Notes under the pieces: generated by a model
The model's database searches: none
The model's input: only the letters and a program-made list of their open reading frames with translations
Told to the model about the DNA's origin: nothing
In this document: in pieces, positions 1,527 through 11,349 of the stretch
Position numbering within the stretch: position 1 is the stretch's first letter
Layout: each line of letters starts with the position of its first letter
Position numbers and translations under genes: made by a program
From: Candidatus Caccocola faecipullorum
GTDB taxonomy: Bacteria > Synergistota > Synergistia > Synergistales > Synergistaceae
Reading direction: 5' to 3'
NCBI GenBank assembly: GCA_018716365.1
Contig: DVKA01000052.1
Coordinates: forward strand, 1-13,535
DNA length: 13,535 bases

Positions 1527-3905
1527 TTATTTGCTCTTTGCGTCAAGGCGGACTTTGAGGGCCGCGTTCTCGGCTTTGAGCTCGTGCAGGGCCTGACGTA
1601 CTTCAGCGAGCTGCGCCTGGACTTCGTTCATATCCTTCGGGGCGAGGGCTTTCTTCTTGTCTCCGCCTCTGCCGACGGTGAAGCTGATACCAGCGCGGCC
1701 CATGAGGTCGCCGTCGGAGCAGATCGACGCGCCGAGGTTGAACAGAACGTTCTCGCGCACGTAGTGGAATACGCCGACCGCGACCGCGTATTCGTCACGG
1801 TATGTGCCTATCGCGGCGGAGAGCGTCGTCGGCTCATAGGGGTTGTAGTCGATCGGGTGCAGGCCGGAGAGAGCCGCGGCGTGCGCGCCGACGATGTTGA
1901 TGCTTTCCTGCAGCTGGTCCATGCGCTTGTAGGCCTGCCAGAGCTGGTTGCCCGTCACCGCGTCCGTGCTTCCCATGTAGACGCCGCCGTCCGCGAGGCC
2001 GGTGAGCCTTCCGGCTCCGCCCATGTTGAGGGTGTTCGATACGCCGTCGTAGGTCATGCTTCCGACCTTCATGGCGTTCTCCCTGAAGTAGGCGCTGTTG
2101 TTGTTGATCGAGACGGACCCGTTGTTGATGACCGTGCCGTTTGTACCGCCGACCGTTATCTGGTTGTCAACGGTTACCGTGCCGCCGTCGATGACGGTCT
2201 GGTCGCCTTTTGTTGAGGCGAACGTTCCCTTCTGTCCGTCGATACTTGTCGTGCCGTTGGCGTTGGTGAAGGTGCCGGTTCCTTTGTCGATTACGGTCTG
2301 GTTGTCGCCCGTGCCGACGGTCACCGTGCCGGCAGTCCCGTCGATGACGGTCTGGTTCTCGCCTGTGCCGACGGTCACCGTGCCGGCAGTCCCGTCGATT
2401 ACGGTCTTGTTGTCGCCCGTGCCGACGGTCACCGTGTCGCCGTCGATTACGGTCTGCTTGCCGTCCGTGCCGACGGTGACTTTGTCATTGGCGGTTATGG
2501 TGTCGGCTGTTACGCTGTCAAACTTCGGGTTGTCGGAGACGCTGATGCTTAGGTCCGCGTCGCCGTCGGTGGCGCCGTCTCCGACGATTACTTCGATGTT
2601 GCTTCCGGCCTCAACGTTGAGGGAGCCGCCGGGCTTTACGGTGCTGCTGCCGTTGCCTGTGCCCGGAGTGCCTGTGCCGCCGGTTCCGTCCGCGCCGTTG
2701 ATGTCCCAACCCTCTGCGAGCTTTTCGATGGCGGCTGCAACGTTGGTGTACTCCGTGCCGTTGATCTCAACGCGGAAATCGCCGATCGTTATGCCGCCTG
2801 TGTAGTCCACGCCGAGTTCGCGCGCGATGGATCGAGCGAGGCTGTAAAGCTGCGCGCCGTTGACCGCGTGTGTGCTTGTCGCGTTTACGTCTCCGGCGGC
2901 TACATTGCCGATTTGAACCCGGTCTCCGCTGTTGTCGGTGAGCGTCAGTTCGTTTTTGTGCCCCGTCGTGTATTTCACGGCGTTCGCGTCGAGGTCGTCA
3001 ATGTCATCGTCTATCGCGGTGAACACATCCTGGACGGTCGTCGTGGTCGCCGGGGCATCGTCTCTGTACTTGAATCCTTTGTTGGTTATCGCGCCGTTCG
3101 TCGAGTTGACTTCCGCTATGGGGTTGCCGTCAGCGTCGGTGCCGAATATGCCGAGCGTATCGTTGAGCTGGCCGACGTTCACGGCATCGGTGTCGGCCCG
3201 GCCCGCGGCCATGTTGACGAGGCGGCGCTGGGTAAGACTACTACCGATTGAAACTACATAGTTTTCTGTCGCATTTGATCCGGAACCCAGCGCGATTGAG
3301 CCGCTAACCCCTTCCCTAACAGCTGCATTCTTGCCGATGGCTACGGATTCATTAGCTCCGGAGGTATTATTGCCCACTTGGGCATAGTCTCCGATTGCGA
3401 TAGAGTATTGGCCATATGCTTTCGCTTGGCGGCCGACCGCGACAGAGTAGCCGCCCGTCGCGCCGGCAGTTTCGCCGAGTGCGATTGAGGATTCGCCATT
3501 TGCTTTCGCATAGCTGCCGACCGCGACAGATCTGCTATTAGCATCTGTGTCAAAGCCTAAAGCGACTGATTTCTCGCCCGCCGCGTTGGCAGCTGCGCCG
3601 AGTGCGATTGAGGATTCCCCCTCCGCCTGTGCGCCCGTGCCTACTGCAGTGGCAAATTGGGCGTTCGCCGTTGTTTGCATCGGGAGGGGGGCTGGGTAAC
3701 TGGAGCCTATTGCAATTGAACTCGTCCCCTGCGCTTCCGACCCCTTGCCTATTGCTATAGCCGGCGTATCAGATGTGCCATTGTCAGCAGGAACAGTTCC
3801 GTTTATCGGAACATATTCTTCCGCCAACGCCGGAGCCGACTGGAAGGCGAGCGATACGGCGAGCGCGAAAGCTAAAAATTTTGCATAAGATCTTGTTCTT
3901 CTCAT
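1527..3905 (-). CDS. Trimeric autotransporter adhesin (YadA-like)
   Basis: This 792-residue protein is a surface adhesin of the type V-c secretion family, which trimerises and exports itself through a C-terminal barrel. Residues 1-28 are a signal peptide ending ALA|EE. Residues about 48-225 are a YadA-type head of SxAIGxxA repeats (SIAIGS, SIALGA, SVALGF, SVAVGS and others). A neck, RLVNMAAGRADTDAVNVGQL, spans 228-247 and a second, VAAGDVNATSTHAVNGAQL, about 335-353. A Gly/Thr-rich linker (406-425), an 18-residue tandem-repeat stalk (475-544) and a coiled coil at 650-669 precede the four-strand YadA anchor (about 670-745). Unusually, 47 residues follow the anchor, rich in Lys/Glu/Ala with heptads (AEVRQALHELKAENAALKVRL). 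AAGGAGAGG at 3913-3921 supports this start. The ligand is unknown. Confidence 0.93.
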   Translation of the reverse strand: MRRTRSYAKFLAFALAVSLAFQSAPALAEEYVPINGTVPADNGTSDTPAIAIGKGSEAQGTSSIAIGSSYPAPLPMQTTANAQFATAVGTGAQAEGESSIALGAAANAAGEKSVALGFDTDANSRSVAVGSYAKANGESSIALGETAGATGGYSVAVGRQAKAYGQYSIAIGDYAQVGNNTSGANESVAIGKNAAVREGVSGSIALGSGSNATENYVVSIGSSLTQRRLVNMAAGRADTDAVNVGQLNDTLGIFGTDADGNPIAEVNSTNGAITNKGFKYRDDAPATTTTVQDVFTAIDDDIDDLDANAVKYTTGHKNELTLTDNSGDRVQIGNVAAGDVNATSTHAVNGAQLYSLARSIARELGVDYTGGITIGDFRVEINGTEYTNVAAAIEKLAEGWDINGADGTGGTGTPGTGNGSSTVKPGGSLNVEAGSNIEVIVGDGATDGDADLSISVSDNPKFDSVTADTITANDKVTVGTDGKQTVIDGDTVTVGTGDNKTVIDGTAGTVTVGTGENQTVIDGTAGTVTVGTGDNQTVIDKGTGTFTNANGTTSIDGQKGTFASTKGDQTVIDGGTVTVDNQITVGGTNGTVINNGSVSINNNSAYFRENAMKVGSMTYDGVSNTLNMGGAGRLTGLADGGVYMGSTDAVTGNQLWQAYKRMDQLQESINIVGAHAAALSGLHPIDYNPYEPTTLSAAIGTYRDEYAVAVGVFHYVRENVLFNLGASICSDGDLMGRAGISFTVGRGGDKKKALAPKDMNEVQAQLAEVRQALHELKAENAALKVRLDAKSK
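2274..2483 (-). repeat. 54-base tandem repeat in the adhesin stalk
   Basis: Three nearly identical 54-base units (2382-2435, 2328-2381, 2274-2327), plus a shorter divergent 48-base one at 2436-2483, encode 18-residue repeats of the form TVTVGTGDNxTVIDGTAG. Near identity at DNA level suggests recent duplication, and unit number could vary by slippage or recombination, changing stalk length in frame. Confidence 0.85.
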
Positions 3906-3932: not shown

Positions 3933-4394
3933 TTACTTCTTCTTCGCGAAATCGATTTTCACTCTGTTGAGACGTTTCAGTATCTCGCGGCTCACGTCCG
4001 CGTCGGGCTTGAAGCCGAGCGCCGAACCCGCCGGGACTACGACGGTCACCCCCTCTTTGTTTGCCTTGAGCCATCCGGCGACGGCCTTGCGGACCTCTTC
4101 CGCCATCAGCCCCGATACGCGGCTGTATTCCGCGTTGAACTGCGCGTTGAGCTCCGCCTGCTTCTGCGCAGTCTTCTGCGCCGCGTCTTTGTCCTTTGAC
4201 GCGGATTTGGCGAAGGCGGCGAGCTCGTCGTTCAGCGATTTCCGCAGGTTGTCGATGTACTGCTGTCCTTCCTTGCCGGGGACGCTCCTCTCTATCACGC
4301 GCGCCACGTCCACAACGGCGACCTCCCCGAAGGCCGGGGCGGCAAGAGCGCAAAAGGCCAACAGCAGCGCTGCAGCTAATTTTGCAAAACGCAT
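3933..4394 (-). CDS. OmpH/Skp-family periplasmic chaperone
   Basis: The 153-residue protein has a signal peptide (residues 1-23, hydrophobic LAAALLLAFCALAAPAFG). Its mature start EVAVVDVARVIERSVPGKEG is typical of OmpH/Skp. A long Lys/Ala/Gln-rich helical segment (about 48-95) follows, then a C-terminal strand-forming part ending DVSREILKRLNRVKIDFAKKK. Skp trimers hold unfolded outer-membrane proteins in the periplasm with helical tentacles. Length and order of parts match the family (about 150-170 residues). It lies 27 bases upstream of the adhesin in the same direction. It is therefore probably co-transcribed and may be a dedicated chaperone for it rather than the general housekeeping Skp, which usually sits next to bamA. 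A GGAAG sequence about 10 bases before ATG serves as ribosome binding site. Confidence 0.88.
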   Translation of the reverse strand: MRFAKLAAALLLAFCALAAPAFGEVAVVDVARVIERSVPGKEGQQYIDNLRKSLNDELAAFAKSASKDKDAAQKTAQKQAELNAQFNAEYSRVSGLMAEEVRKAVAGWLKANKEGVTVVVPAGSALGFKPDADVSREILKRLNRVKIDFAKKK

Positions 4395-7518: not shown

Positions 7519-8013
7519 ATGGACAACAAGAAGAGAGAAGAAATACTTCGCCTGCTTGAGGCGAACGCGAGATACACGCCGAAAGACATCGCCGTGATGC
7601 TAGGCCTTGGACTTGAAGAGACCGAAAACGAGATAAAGCAGATGGAGAAAGAGCGCATTATCTGCGGCTACCACGCGCTCGTCAACTGGGACAAGACCGA
7701 CGACGAAAAGATCTCCGCGCTCATCGAGCTGAAGGTCATGCCGCAGCGCGGCCACGGCTACGACAGCATCGCCGAAAAGATATACCAGTACCCGGAGGTC
7801 GAGTCGCTCTACCTCATGTCCGGGGCCTACGACTTCTCCGTGATACTCAAGAAGGCGACGATGAAGGAGATTGCGAACTTCGTATCGACGCGCCTCGCCG
7901 TCATGGACGAGGTTCAGAGCACAGCGACGCACATCGTCCTCGTGCGCTATAAGGACCACGGCACGACTCTCGTCGAACAGAAAAAAGACCAGCGCGTGAT
8001 GGTGATGCCATGA
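7519..8013 (+). CDS. Lrp/AsnC family transcriptional regulator
   Basis: The 164-residue protein has an N-terminal winged helix-turn-helix (about residues 3-50: REEILRLLEANARYTPKDIAVMLGL). A C-terminal RAM ligand-binding domain follows (about 65-150), with the GAYDF turn that in Lrp relatives lines the effector site between subunits. Such proteins sense amino acids and regulate their metabolism or transport as dimers to hexadecamers. GGAGGG at 7507-7512 lies 6 bases before the ATG. The stop codon overlaps the start of the aminotransferase gene (ATGA), so the two are translationally coupled. The obvious reading is a regulator of its partner enzyme, responding to that enzyme's amino-acid substrate. 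The ligand cannot be read from the sequence. Confidence 0.92.
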   Translation: MDNKKREEILRLLEANARYTPKDIAVMLGLGLEETENEIKQMEKERIICGYHALVNWDKTDDEKISALIELKVMPQRGHGYDSIAEKIYQYPEVESLYLMSGAYDFSVILKKATMKEIANFVSTRLAVMDEVQSTATHIVLVRYKDHGTTLVEQKKDQRVMVMP

Positions 8014-9200
8014 GAGATTTTATCTGCGACAAGATAAAACAGATAAAGCCCTCTGGCATCCGCAGACTCTTCGACATCGCGAACGAGATCCCCGACGTCA
8101 TCTCGCTCGGAGTCGGCGAGCCTGACTTCGACACTCCGTGGCACATCCGTGAAGAAGGCATCTACTCGCTCCAGAAGGGGCGCACCTTCTACACCTCGAA
8201 CTCCGGGCTTCCAGAGCTGCGCGACGAGATAGCGAACTTCATGCACCGCAAGTACGGCCTCATATACGACCCGAAGCACGAAATAATCCTCACGGTCGGC
8301 GGCAGCGAGGCGATAGACATAGCCTTCCGCGCGACGCTGAACCCCGGCGACGAGGTCGTCTACCCGGAGCCCGGCTACGTCTCATACGAGCCGTGCATCC
8401 TGCTTTCCGACGGCGTTCCCGTGCCGATAGAGCTCTCGGCAGAGACGGAATTCCGCCTGCAGCCGGAGCAGCTTGAAGCCGCGATAACGCCCAAGACGAA
8501 GGTTCTGCTCATATCGTACCCGAACAACCCGACGGGAGCGATAATGGAGCGCTCCGACCTTGAAAAGCTCGTTCCGGTGATACTCAAGCACGACCTGATG
8601 GTCGTTTCCGACGAGATATACAGCGAGCTCTGCTACAAGGAACGCCACGTCAGCATCGCGTCGCTGCCGGGAATGCACGAGCGCACAGTCGTCATAAACG
8701 GATTCTCGAAATCCTTCGCCATGACCGGATGGCGCCTGGGCTGGGTCTGCGCGCCCGCGCACCTAATGGAATATATGCTGAAGATACATCAGTTCGGCAT
8801 AATGTCCGCTCCGACCATGAGCCAGTACGCGGCTATATCCGCGCTGCGCAACGGGGACAAGGACACGGAAATGATGACAGAGTCATACAACCAGCGCCGC
8901 CGCTTCCTCATGGAGGCTTTTTCCGAGATGGGACTGCCGTGCTTCGAGCCGTACGGAGCGTTCTATACGTTCCCGGACATCTCGGAATTCGGCATGGGCT
9001 CCGAAGAGTTCTGCGAGAAACTTCTGAAGGAAGAAAACGTCGCCGTCGTCCCGGGATCCGCTTTCGGCAAGTCCGGCGACAGGCACGTGCGTATCTCCTA
9101 CTGCTACTCAGTCGAGGAGCTCAAAGAGGCGATGGAGCGCATAGCCCGCTTCGTCGACAAACTGCGCTCGGAAGAGAAAGACAAGGCGAAAGAGAGATAA
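8010..9200 (+). CDS. Class I/II pyridoxal-phosphate aminotransferase
   Basis: The 396-residue protein is a fold-type I aspartate aminotransferase superfamily enzyme. The PLP-binding lysine is K234 in GFSKSFAMTGWRLG. The cofactor pocket also shows YPNNPTG (170-176), D201 and Y204 in VSDEIYSEL, and R361 in DRHVRISY, the arginine that binds the substrate carboxylate. It starts MRDFICDKIKQIKPSGIRRLFDIANEIPDVISLGVGEPDF, as in the PatA/AspB-like subgroup. It overlaps the lrp-like gene by 4 bases and is probably translated by coupling. The likely reaction is transfer of an amino group between an amino acid and 2-oxoglutarate. Substrate preference (aspartate, alanine, aromatic) is not decidable here. 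The C-terminal tail is unusually charged (EEKDKAKER). Confidence 0.93.
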   Translation: MRDFICDKIKQIKPSGIRRLFDIANEIPDVISLGVGEPDFDTPWHIREEGIYSLQKGRTFYTSNSGLPELRDEIANFMHRKYGLIYDPKHEIILTVGGSEAIDIAFRATLNPGDEVVYPEPGYVSYEPCILLSDGVPVPIELSAETEFRLQPEQLEAAITPKTKVLLISYPNNPTGAIMERSDLEKLVPVILKHDLMVVSDEIYSELCYKERHVSIASLPGMHERTVVINGFSKSFAMTGWRLGWVCAPAHLMEYMLKIHQFGIMSAPTMSQYAAISALRNGDKDTEMMTESYNQRRRFLMEAFSEMGLPCFEPYGAFYTFPDISEFGMGSEEFCEKLLKEENVAVVPGSAFGKSGDRHVRISYCYSVEELKEAMERIARFVDKLRSEEKDKAKER

Positions 9201-9203
9201 TGA

Positions 9204-9212
9204 TGCTATAAT
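9204..9212 (+). promoter_or_regulatory. Extended -10 promoter (TGCTATAAT) for the structured RNA
   Basis: A consensus TATAAT at 9207-9212 preceded by TG at the extended -10 position lies just after the aminotransferase stop codon. No -35 is evident, which extended -10 promoters can tolerate. Start would be near 9219. Confidence 0.55.
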
Positions 9213-9218
9213 AGATGG

Positions 9219-9424
9219 AGAGAAGAGAGAGCCGCAGGAAGGGTTGCGGTAAAACCTCTCTCCGGCCTGCCTAGACTGAGGGGCAACTCAGCCTAGACAT
9301 TCAAGGCCAAGTTTAAAGGTTGGTATTGCGGAGCAATTCCGCAAAAGCTGCAATAAGCGCCGCAAACGCTGTAAGCAGCTTGACGATTAGGGTCGCCCAT
9401 TCGTAGAATGAGCGGCCTTTTTCG
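9219..9424 (+). ncRNA. Candidate structured antisense RNA overlapping the 40-residue peptide gene
   Basis: Between an extended -10 promoter and a terminator, nearly every base falls in a hairpin. These are 9217-9263 (GGAGAG/CTCTCC with inner CCGCA/TGCGG), 9264-9308 (GGCCT/AGGCC with inner CTGAG/CTCAG), 9326-9344 (TTGCGGA/TCCGCAA) and 9345-9381 (AAGCTGC/GCAGCTT with inner AGCG/CGCT), then the terminator. The RNA would be about 205 bases. It is complementary to codons 4-40 and the 3' region of the minus-strand peptide mRNA, as an antitoxin RNA would be. The alternative is that it is just the 3' untranslated region of the aminotransferase operon. It does not match any RNA family that I recognise. 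Confidence 0.45.
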
Positions 9425-9435
9425 TTTTTTGCCAT
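9313..9435 (-). CDS. 40-residue single-helix membrane peptide, type I toxin-like
   Basis: This short gene starts at ATG 9433-9435 and ends at TAA 9313-9315. The peptide starts MAKNEKGRSFYEWATLIVKL and continues LTAFAALIAAFAELLRNTNL: a basic N-terminus, one hydrophobic helix of about 20 residues (14-33) and a short polar tail. GGGGG then GAGG lie directly upstream of the ATG, but the G run pairs with CCCCC in a hairpin at 9440-9463. A promoter candidate is at 9515-9520. An opposing RNA (9219-9424) covers most of the gene. Small size, one basic-flanked helix, a hidden ribosome site and an antisense transcript are the hallmarks of type I toxins. Other small membrane peptides (transporter regulators, phage-derived holin-like peptides) are possible. 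I do not recognise a named family. Confidence 0.6.
   Translation of the reverse strand: MAKNEKGRSFYEWATLIVKLLTAFAALIAAFAELLRNTNL
9391..9430 (+). terminator. Intrinsic terminator of the structured RNA or aminotransferase operon
   Basis: GGTCGCCCATTC (9391-9402) pairs with GAATGAGCGGCC (9406-9417) around a GTA loop, with one G-U pair and one mismatch. TTTTT CG TTTTTT follows. It lies within codons 2-15 of the opposing small peptide gene, so the two genes share these bases. Confidence 0.85.
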
Positions 9436-9439
9436 CCTC

Positions 9440-9463
9440 TTTCCCCCTTTCTGCCGGGGGAAA
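9440..9463 (-). promoter_or_regulatory. Hairpin sequestering the ribosome binding site of the small peptide gene
   Basis: On the minus strand TTTCCCCC (9463-9456) pairs perfectly with GGGGGAAA (9447-9440) around an 8-base loop; GAGG and the ATG follow at once. The likely Shine-Dalgarno G run is thus base paired. A second small hairpin (GGCAGT/ACTGCC) lies upstream in the same leader around 9475-9496. Confidence 0.6.
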
Positions 9464-9514
9464 TCCCTTTCTCTGGCAGTACCCGGCGTCACTGCCCGGG
9501 CCCTTCCGTTCGTT

Positions 9515-9543
9515 ATTATACTATATGAAAGCTGGCGTTAAAA
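9515..9543 (-). promoter_or_regulatory. Candidate promoter of the small peptide gene
   Basis: A perfect TATAAT reads on the minus strand at 9520-9515. The -35 region (TTTTAA at 17-base spacing) matches at 3 of 6. Start would be near 9508, giving a leader of about 73 bases. Confidence 0.5.
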
Positions 9544-9580
9544 ACACAAGCCTCTCGCATTACACAACGCTTATACCCTA

Positions 9581-10024
9581 TCAAAGCTCCTTCTCAAATA
9601 CAATCTTGTCCTCGCCCTCGTGAAATCCGTTCTTACGGTAAAATCCGCAGGCTGGCGCGCCGCGCTTCGTCCAGAGCGATACGCTTCTGACGCCGCGCGC
9701 TCTGAGGTATTCGTCCATGAGCTTCACGAACTCCGTGCCCGCGCCGCGGCCCTGCATCGACGGCAGGACGCATAGGTCGTCTATGCAGTATTCCGCGCCC
9801 CAGTACCAGCGTTTTATTCTTCCAAGCGAGACGCCCGCGAGCCGCGCGCCGTCATAGAGGCCGAGCGAGAGCGAATCGGGCGCGTTCGTCAGCCCTTCTA
9901 TGTACTCGCGCAGCGCCGCCTCGTCGTCCCACGTTTCGTTCCACGGGGCCTGCGCGAAGCCGCCGCGTATGATTTCCATGACGGCGGAGATTTCGCCGCG
10001 CACGTCGAGTTCTTTCAGTTCCAT
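9581..10024 (-). CDS. GNAT family N-acetyltransferase
   Basis: The 147-residue protein has the Gcn5-related acetyltransferase fold. Motif A, LCVLPSMQGRGAGTEFV (about residues 84-100), carries the Q-x-x-G-x-G/A acetyl-CoA pyrophosphate loop. The C-terminal motif B region reads SVSLWTKRGAPACGFYRKNGFHEGE, with the usual FYxKNGF. The N-terminal PWNETW resembles some AAC(6')-like aminoglycoside or small-molecule acetyltransferases, but substrate cannot be assigned. The start overlaps the end of the MATE gene: GTG at 10027 and ATG at 10024 are both possible, and I chose ATG. Coupling to a multidrug efflux gene makes a role in detoxifying an amine-bearing compound attractive but unproven. Confidence 0.88.
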   Translation of the reverse strand: MELKELDVRGEISAVMEIIRGGFAQAPWNETWDDEAALREYIEGLTNAPDSLSLGLYDGARLAGVSLGRIKRWYWGAEYCIDDLCVLPSMQGRGAGTEFVKLMDEYLRARGVRSVSLWTKRGAPACGFYRKNGFHEGEDKIVFEKEL

Positions 10025-11349
10025 CACATACCGCGCCTTTCAATCAGTTTTTTATTGCGAGCCGCGCGCGCCGCGTAGAGCGCGAGCAGCATAAGCCATT
10101 GGAAAGCTTCCGCGAAAGCTATCGACATATTGCCGAAGAACGGTACGAGCGCATAGGAGGCCGCGATACGGAAGGCGAGCGCGCCCATGCCCGCGCAGCT
10201 CGACCAGAGCACGTCGCCCAGCCCCTCGATGTAGCCGCGGAATGCCGTAGCAAGGCCGAAGGCCCAGTAGAAGCTCGCTATGCGCAGGAAGAAGTCATGT
10301 CCTATGGCGACCGCCTCGCCGCCCGCCCCGAAGAGCGCGATGAGGCGGCTTCCGGTCGGGATGACGAGCAGAGTCAAAGCGACGGAGACCGCCGCCATGA
10401 GCGCCGCGCCCGCGGAGAATATGCGCCCCATGCGCGCGCGGTCGCCCGCGCCGCGGCTCTGCGCGACGAGCGTAGAGATCGCCGAGCCGAGGTTGATTAT
10501 CGGCAGGAGGATGATCGTGTCTATTCTGTAAGCCGTCGTGACGGCGGCGACCGTCTGGGTGCCGAAGCCGTTCATGAAGTTCTGGAGCACGAGGTTGCCG
10601 AGCGACGTGACGCTGAACTGCACGGTCGGAGGAAAGCCGAGGCGGCAGCCTTCGGCGAGCGCGGCGCGGTCTATGAGTCTGTCCCTGAAATTGAAGCGCA
10701 GGACGGGATATTTGCGCGCGGCGTAAAAAATAAGGAAGATAGCCATCGCGGCCTGCGCGGCGACGGTAGCGGCGGCGGCTCCCGCGACGCTCCAGCGGAA
10801 GACCGCGACGAAGAGCAGGTCGAGCGCGACGTTCACCACAGACGAGACGAGGACGGCGTAAAACGGCGCCCGGCTGTCGCCGAGGCCGCGCAGCGCAGCG
10901 GAATAGACGTTGTAGAGCGCGAGGAAGGGGACGCCCGCGAGCACGATGACGAGATAATCCTCCGCCATCGCTATCGTGTCGGGCGTAGTGTGCATCAGGC
11001 GCAGCAGCGCGGGAGCGGTCGCCATCCCGAGCGCCGCGAGCGCCGAGAAGGCAGCGAGGAAGACGGCGGAGAATGTGGATAGGATGCGAGCCATCGCGCG
11101 CATGTCGCCGCTCCCGTAGGTCTGGGCGAACAATATCGAGAGGCCGACGGAAAATCCGGCGATGAGGTAAATGTAGAAGCCGACCGCCGTCGCGGTTGCT
11201 CCGACCGCAGCGAGCGCCGCCTCGCCGACGACGTTGCCGACGATGAAGGCGTCCGCCCAGTTGTAGAGCTGCTGGAGCACGCCGCTTGCGATCAGCGGCA
11301 GGCTGAAGTCCGCCAGTTCGCGCGCAGTGCTCCTGAAATCCTCCCTCAT
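10024..11349 (-). CDS. MATE family multidrug/sodium antiporter
   Basis: The 441-residue protein has twelve predicted hydrophobic segments in two six-helix halves. It begins with the family's ELADFSLPLIASGVLQQLYNWADAFIVGNVVG and contains RGLGDSRAPF in the first half and GLATAFRGYIEGLGDV in the second. It resembles the DinF/NorM-type antiporters that expel cationic compounds using a sodium or proton gradient across the inner membrane. I place the start at 11349, where GGAGG lies 9 bases upstream. A longer frame from TTG at 11421 would start inside a terminator-bearing leader and adds a basic stretch unlike the family. The GNAT gene overlaps its end. Expression is probably controlled by the leader terminator at 11378-11410. 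Confidence 0.93.
   Translation of the reverse strand: MREDFRSTARELADFSLPLIASGVLQQLYNWADAFIVGNVVGEAALAAVGATATAVGFYIYLIAGFSVGLSILFAQTYGSGDMRAMARILSTFSAVFLAAFSALAALGMATAPALLRLMHTTPDTIAMAEDYLVIVLAGVPFLALYNVYSAALRGLGDSRAPFYAVLVSSVVNVALDLLFVAVFRWSVAGAAAATVAAQAAMAIFLIFYAARKYPVLRFNFRDRLIDRAALAEGCRLGFPPTVQFSVTSLGNLVLQNFMNGFGTQTVAAVTTAYRIDTIILLPIINLGSAISTLVAQSRGAGDRARMGRIFSAGAALMAAVSVALTLLVIPTGSRLIALFGAGGEAVAIGHDFFLRIASFYWAFGLATAFRGYIEGLGDVLWSSCAGMGALAFRIAASYALVPFFGNMSIAFAEAFQWLMLLALYAARAARNKKLIERRGM

Follow-up and report, generated by a model that had tools for sequence, protein, structure and literature searches.

A candidate type I toxin-antitoxin module with relatives across its phylum and predicted pairing between the two ends of its mRNA

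In the window considered here, a stretch of 13,535 nucleotides forming contig C244 of a 2.15 Mb draft genome in 299 contigs, about 300 bases between two ordinary genes, an aminotransferase gene (8010-9200, plus strand) and a GNAT acetyltransferase gene (9581-10027, minus strand), hold a candidate module. The question raised by this locus is whether a short minus-strand ORF and an antisense RNA from the plus strand make up a type I toxin-antitoxin pair, as an earlier note made from the sequence had proposed. The analysis described below indicates that the locus is probably a type I toxin-antitoxin module, and no description of its family was found. Conservation tests support the earlier reading, to which the family, its tandem arrays and a pairing between the 5' and 3' parts of the mRNA (the 5'-3' lock) are now added.

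The locus and its parts

Read along the minus strand, the candidate mRNA would start downstream of a TATAAT -10 box (9515-9520), its probable 5' end, GGAAGGG (9501-9507), being the 5' half of the lock. A leader hairpin (9440-9463) pairs the Shine-Dalgarno (SD) G run through an 8-bp stem, both arms of which (9440-9447 and 9456-9463) are in place, and is followed by the peptide ORF, the candidate toxin, with 40 codons and a stop (9435-9313, ATG at 9435), as the earlier note had it. Two hairpins that either strand can form lie within the ORF: H4 (9345-9381) and, in the last codons, H3 (9326-9344). Beyond the ORF, H2 (9264-9308) is the stem of the mRNA 3'UTR and would be the second hairpin of the antisense RNA, while H1 (9217-9263) would be the last hairpin of the mRNA and the first of the antisense RNA; its loop reads CCCTTCC on the minus strand (9237-9243), the 3' half of the lock. 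On the plus strand, an extended -10 box, TGCTATAAT (9204-9212), would serve the candidate antitoxin, an antisense RNA placed at 9219-9430 between an inferred start and an uncertain end. Both boxes were found where they had been proposed; a simple promoter scan of the window placed neither within a two-hexamer promoter, its single hit being another site.

Folding recovered the run of consecutive hairpins claimed for the plus strand: RNA from 9215-9430 forms successive hairpins with a free energy of -90.1 kcal/mol (shuffles average -66.1, sd 4.9; z -4.9), and the minus-strand RNA fold gave a z of -4.2. The leader folded alone reached a z of -2.1, with 6 of 200 shuffles equally good. H2 and H1 are backed, in addition to the fold, by helices 6-9 and helix 10 in relatives, respectively.

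The least secure part of the earlier reading is the antisense terminator, a candidate hairpin with a T run (9391-9430, plus strand). Of the four other full copies in the genus, C60, C161 and G001:C16 share its stem base and T run and G001:C5 lacks them, but the hairpin has an internal mismatch and does not appear in the lists of strict scans; a pattern search for the genus-type terminator gave 0 matches. A terminator-like antisense site is found in just 25 of 84 modules, so the antisense 3' end is not conserved over the family. The copy without the usual terminator, G001:C5 (L174/L183, about 9964-10089), is a diverged one, in which the frame continues to 104 codons, the ORF holds a long perfect hairpin (about 20 pairs) and the core has no helical moment (z -2.0).

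Copies across the phylum and selection on the peptide

Homologues of the peptide occur in relatives. A single-sequence search found three further copies in the window's own genome, one of them truncated by a contig end, and two in the one other genome of the genus, with no match in 38 other near relatives. A profile of 14 genus-type peptides matched in 27 of the 185 genomes of the phylum, and a profile of 19 wider peptides found related ORFs in 52 of the 185, spread over 14 of 62 genera; some matches near the limits may be due to chance. The highest number per genome was 14 (G144), and tandem copies about 310-405 bp apart occur in G128, G124 and G144. In a protein collection, 16 proteins were matched by the single sequence and 27 and 66 by the two profiles, all with uninformative names. 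In another genus of the window's family, an SD-led 38-codon ORF with a pattern like that of the family (L056, G058:C31, 1501-1617) gave a weak match (E 0.02), and the usual H2 and H1 are absent by eye. The sister species has the same aminotransferase (94% identical protein) and acetyltransferase genes, which there flank a 167-codon ORF (L179:257-760) instead of the module, and window positions 9201-9582 have no counterpart in it. An rRNA search detected no 16S gene in the window's genome or in its sister.

For comparative work, 109 matches outside the genus (from a list reaching down to E 4.9e-5) and five of the genus were collected with their flanks, 114 in all; C35, which a contig end truncates, was excluded. 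Cores were obtained from 112 of the 114, and 110 of these are distinct; 84 copies remained after filtering on start, SD, length and flanks. A clear sense -10 box lay 60-125 nt away in 71 of the 84, and 69 of those 71 had the hairpin. Full-module references came from 61 of the 84; 40 of these entered the module alignment, and 34 of the 40 a 3'UTR alignment.

The frame looks coding and under purifying selection when copies are compared. Over 171 close pairs, pN/pS was 0.37 in frame, compared with 0.57-2.56 in the other five frames, a contrast that codon pairing works against by restricting silent change and that sampling by peptide similarity favours; over 33 disjoint pairs it was 0.38, compared with 0.52-2.52. 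Differences at codon positions 1, 2 and 3 numbered 622, 222 and 1000, an in-frame stop occurred in only two of 110 cores, and SD sequences such as GAAAGGAGGTGA precede the ORFs of most copies.

In 84 copies the full peptide is 24-44 residues long (median 28). The single hydrophobic helix described earlier suits the window's genus, whose members are longer and more hydrophobic and carry EKxRSxxEW or a close variant before the helix; the wider family is better described as mostly cationic amphipathic helices, as predicted from sequence, with a mean helical moment of 0.69 for core 18-mers (above that of their own shuffles, p < 0.05, in 106 of 112) and a mean net charge of +3.1 (positive in 80 of 84 peptides). 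The candidate toxins are small, hydrophobic or amphipathic, mostly predicted helical peptides with a ribosome-binding site, as is looked for in type I systems.

The earlier note recognized no named family, and database searches agreed with it. For the peptide, Pfam, NCBIfam and PHROGs returned no significant match (the best were weak, at E about 0.05); the outcome was the same for 19 family members in a Pfam and NCBIfam profile scan and, at the gathering score, for the window and 14 related loci in Rfam (0 matches). Beyond the phylum, the search comprised the protein collection, phage and plasmid records and genus-type pattern scans. Phage records gave no match by peptide or by DNA, and plasmid records none by peptide; a 35-base plasmid DNA match (E 0.03) was taken as chance. 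The exact RNA-core pattern had 0 matches in each of the collections genome_contigs and viral_contigs, and of the stretches that fitted the pattern of the genus-type peptide profile there (16 and 6, respectively), 0 were confirmed; both scans used genus-type queries and possibly missed near genomes. A literature search combining type I toxin-antitoxin with Synergistetes or Synergistota returned nothing on the topic, and one combining Synergistetes, toxin-antitoxin and antisense RNA returned polymorphic toxins only. Because most subscription papers lie outside the search, this gap lends weak support to novelty; the lack of matches in Rfam, Pfam and NCBIfam supports it better.

Conserved RNA structure and predicted pairing of the mRNA ends

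Along the mRNA strand, the module usually runs from a -10 box through a G-rich probable start, the leader hairpin, the C-rich stretch that can pair with the SD and the ORF with H4 and H3 to H2 in the 3'UTR, H1 as the last hairpin and the antisense -10 box in reverse. Both promoter positions are conserved. In 63 of 83 copies the expected stretch contains a sense -10 scoring at least 9.0, compared with a shuffled mean of 3.3 and with 13 of 83 on the opposite strand; for the antisense -10 the figures are 55 of 84, 3.4 and 5 of 84. In the G000:C161 copy (L003) the leader is longer by about 80 bases, which include an inverted repeat, sit upstream of the SD hairpin and may be a small insertion; the -10 box of this copy lies 158 nt from the start.

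Besides the -10 boxes, conservation extends to the RNA helices, many of which show matched changes. In a sequence-only alignment of 40 modules, 84.5% of cells were paired under the structure; shuffles gave 76.1%, and sliding the structure by 1-3 columns gave no more than 53.6%. The drawing of the structure on one of the 40 rows favours it over the slid versions, and sequence relatedness favours it over shuffles. Changes on both sides were seen at 41 of 54 pairs, and on each of the five measures 0 of 500 shuffles did as well. Among the helices, the leader hairpin has the least support (56.5% of cells paired); the SD can form at least five contiguous upstream pairs in 62 of 81 copies, a modest excess that 52 of 10,000 permutations equalled. 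H4 and H3 hold over the 110 distinct cores, H3 in two registers with matched changes: core C41 accompanies G53 in 25 of 28 copies, and G41 accompanies another base in 73 of 75. Counts of G-U versus A-C at core pairs, taken as a sign of which strand needs the hairpins within the ORF, point both ways: H4 (59:26) and H3 (19:12) lean toward the mRNA, and a wider H4 set leans the opposite way (65:264).

The strongest result of these sequence comparisons is the 5'-3' lock, a complementarity within the mRNA between its G-rich 5' end and the H1 loop. Across the 69 copies with a -10 box and hairpin, the mean lock score was 17.6, compared with 12.6 (sd 0.37) when 5' ends were permuted among loops, and 0 of 20,000 permutations were as high; for 44 copies with distinct loops it was 17.0, compared with 12.2 (sd 0.46), again with 0 of 20,000 as high. 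At least six contiguous pairs form in 61 of the 69 copies, from 35 genomes, although three of these passes (G144:C95:2021, G144:C95:2817 and G110:C29) use a wrongly chosen hairpin. The helix starts 6-10 bases past the -10 box, where the RNA is expected to start, in 58 of the 61. Eight copies have no six-pair lock: in four the script took the wrong hairpin, and four (G109:C113:4094, G110:C16, G162:C22 and G118:C220) look really weak.

The lock is also variable in a matched manner. There are 39 distinct lock helices, 17 of them pure Watson-Crick, including GGAGAGG/CCTCTCC, GGCGAGG/CCTCGCC, GGCAAGG/CCTTGCC, GGACAGG/CCTGTCC and GGGAAGC/GCTTCCC; in the window the lock is GGAAGGG/CCCTTCC. Both-side changes occur at 7 of 7 pairs, and 93.9% of cells are paired. 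A looser test with a 90-base 3' segment agrees but is weaker (z 8.7; judged by its maximum, 0 of 10,000 reached it), and in only 5 of 71 did the own partner rank first or share first place. When partners were compared with a same-genome neighbour of different code, the own partner won in 53 of 76 ordered comparisons. A pseudoknot-free fold of the window does not choose the lock (-129.6 free, -121.9 forced), forcing of which opens H1. Six tandem peptide matches lie in G128:C99:14537-16333 (L087), with neighbours that differ in lock code (GGCGAGG and GGCAAGG types).

A search by RNA alone extended the picture. A covariance model of 34 3'UTRs, with the ORF excluded, matched 46 of the 185 genomes at E <= 0.001 and had no match in the window's own genus, where H2 and H1 have other sequences. 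From all model matches, a subset of 21 places, none near a collected one, was picked by eye. At 12 of these the 3'UTR directly follows a small SD-led ORF, and in eight of the 12 (L222, L223, L224, L225, L228, L231, L232 and L235) the same RNA frame encloses a second kind of small peptide, LD..I.LLQ...S.ATV.E, which came to light through this model alone and may be a distant relative or a replacement; the 5' end can pair there with the last loop by eye, sometimes with G-U. The other nine (L219, L220, L226, L227, L229, L230, L233, L237 and L238) are without an intact family ORF, and eight of them have an antisense -10 of at least 9.0 and none has a sense -10 with such a score. These places are possibly orphan antitoxins or remnants, and the pattern resembles loss of a toxin with retention of its antitoxin; because the antisense -10 adjoins the part searched, it is no more than suggestive. 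The match at L238 (G052:C169:491-583, E 4.6e-19) lies in the window's own family (f1) and resembles the type of another family, which points to transfer or contamination (listed contamination, 7%).

Proposed mechanism, alternatives and known systems

In the model proposed here, the minus strand would yield a short mRNA that encodes a small, helical peptide active at the membrane. The mRNA would pair its 5' bases with the H1 loop and its SD with the leader, pairings that covariation supports, and the full-length mRNA would therefore be a closed and presumably inactive store. Loss of the 3' end may open it, by analogy with hok and aapA, the full-length mRNAs of which need 3' processing before translation (PMC6733600). 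The plus strand would yield the antisense RNA, which is the reverse complement of the mRNA, so its first loop displays the bases of the mRNA 5' end. This loop could kiss the last loop of the mRNA once that is freed, and a duplex could then spread through the 3'UTR and across most of the ORF, leading to silencing and decay; where the antisense RNA fails, the peptide would be made and would probably harm the membrane. Because the 5' tail imitates the first loop of the antisense RNA and occupies the last loop of the mRNA, one code would act as both lock and recognition key, and because that code has changed often, with both partners following, tandem copies in one cell could stay partly separate. 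That the family as a whole is an undescribed, phylum-wide type I family, in which one RNA frame carries exchangeable peptides and a single code serves as lock and key, keeping tandem copies partly separate, is moderately likely.

Other explanations must account for the same observations. The peptide, small and of a membrane or amphipathic type, might be regulated without being a self-toxin: it could be secreted, act as a signal or modulate the membrane when made under stress, with the mRNA fold and the antisense RNA keeping it off. Cationic amphipathic helices would suit extracellular action equally, but no separate gene for signalling or export was noticed, the combination of lock and cis-antisense RNA is the design of known type I toxins (PMC6733600), and tandem and scattered copies, together with loci that have lost the ORF and kept the antisense -10, fit a toxin better, which makes the non-toxic peptide unlikely. 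It is still less probable, to the point of being very doubtful, that the module is a structured non-coding RNA or dispersed repeat with an incidental ORF. The strength of the RNA structure and covariation, the dispersal of the copies, the missing module at the matching site of the sister species and the copies without an intact ORF are what such an element would give; against this stand the in-frame pN/pS (0.37 versus 0.57-2.56, a contrast favoured by the finding of copies through their peptides), the skew among codon positions (622/222/1000), the two stops in 110 cores and the SD that most copies have ahead of the start. Given how common AT-rich -10 matches and short hydrophobic ORFs are, a chance meeting of such an ORF with promoter-like and hairpin-like sequence, without joint function, had to be considered, but the census, the lock permutations, the -10 enrichment and the covariation contradict it, and it is scarcely credible.

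Taken as a type I module, the locus resembles several known systems. Like hok/Sok, it combines a small predicted membrane peptide, a candidate antisense RNA and 5'-3' mRNA pairing, seen here by covariation and permutation. Pfam and NCBIfam contain a Hok profile, whereas the 19 members scanned here had no significant match in either. Sok acts on an overlapping leader frame; here, in contrast, the antisense RNA would cover the ORF and 3'UTR, and the 5' end would pair with the H1 loop and the SD locally. The aapA/IsoA systems of Helicobacter have a 5'-3' long-distance mRNA interaction and several chromosomal copies, as here, and a cis-overlapping antisense RNA, for which this family has a candidate (PMC6733600). 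In aapA3 the long-distance pairing takes in the SD itself, whereas the lock helix here excludes the SD, which can pair with the leader. In the profile searches no family match linked these peptides to AapA. Fst/Ldr toxins are likewise short helical membrane peptides, of about 30-35 residues with basic C-terminal residues and a PXXXGC motif (PMC8309996); PXXXGC occurs in 0 of the 84 peptides here, and there was no significant profile match.

The window's phylum, taken to be Synergistota, is presumably none of Proteobacteria, Firmicutes and Tenericutes. According to PMC12390103 (2025), type I systems had previously been found only in those three, and that paper puts forward a first candidate from Cyanobacteria. 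That pair, msoT1/msoA1 of Microcystis, is likewise a candidate type I pair from outside the classical phyla and belongs to a different phylum. More than 100 collected copies in such a phylum, with strong covariation, would suggest that closure of a toxin mRNA through its two ends arose more than once, and the 17 distinct pure Watson-Crick locks offer a natural series for the study of mRNA opening and of how tandem copies avoid cross-talk. ORFs this small are easily missed by annotation. Elsewhere in the window, a gene for a YadA-like trimeric autotransporter with head, stalk and anchor domains (1527-3905) is followed by an OmpH-like gene (3933-4394).
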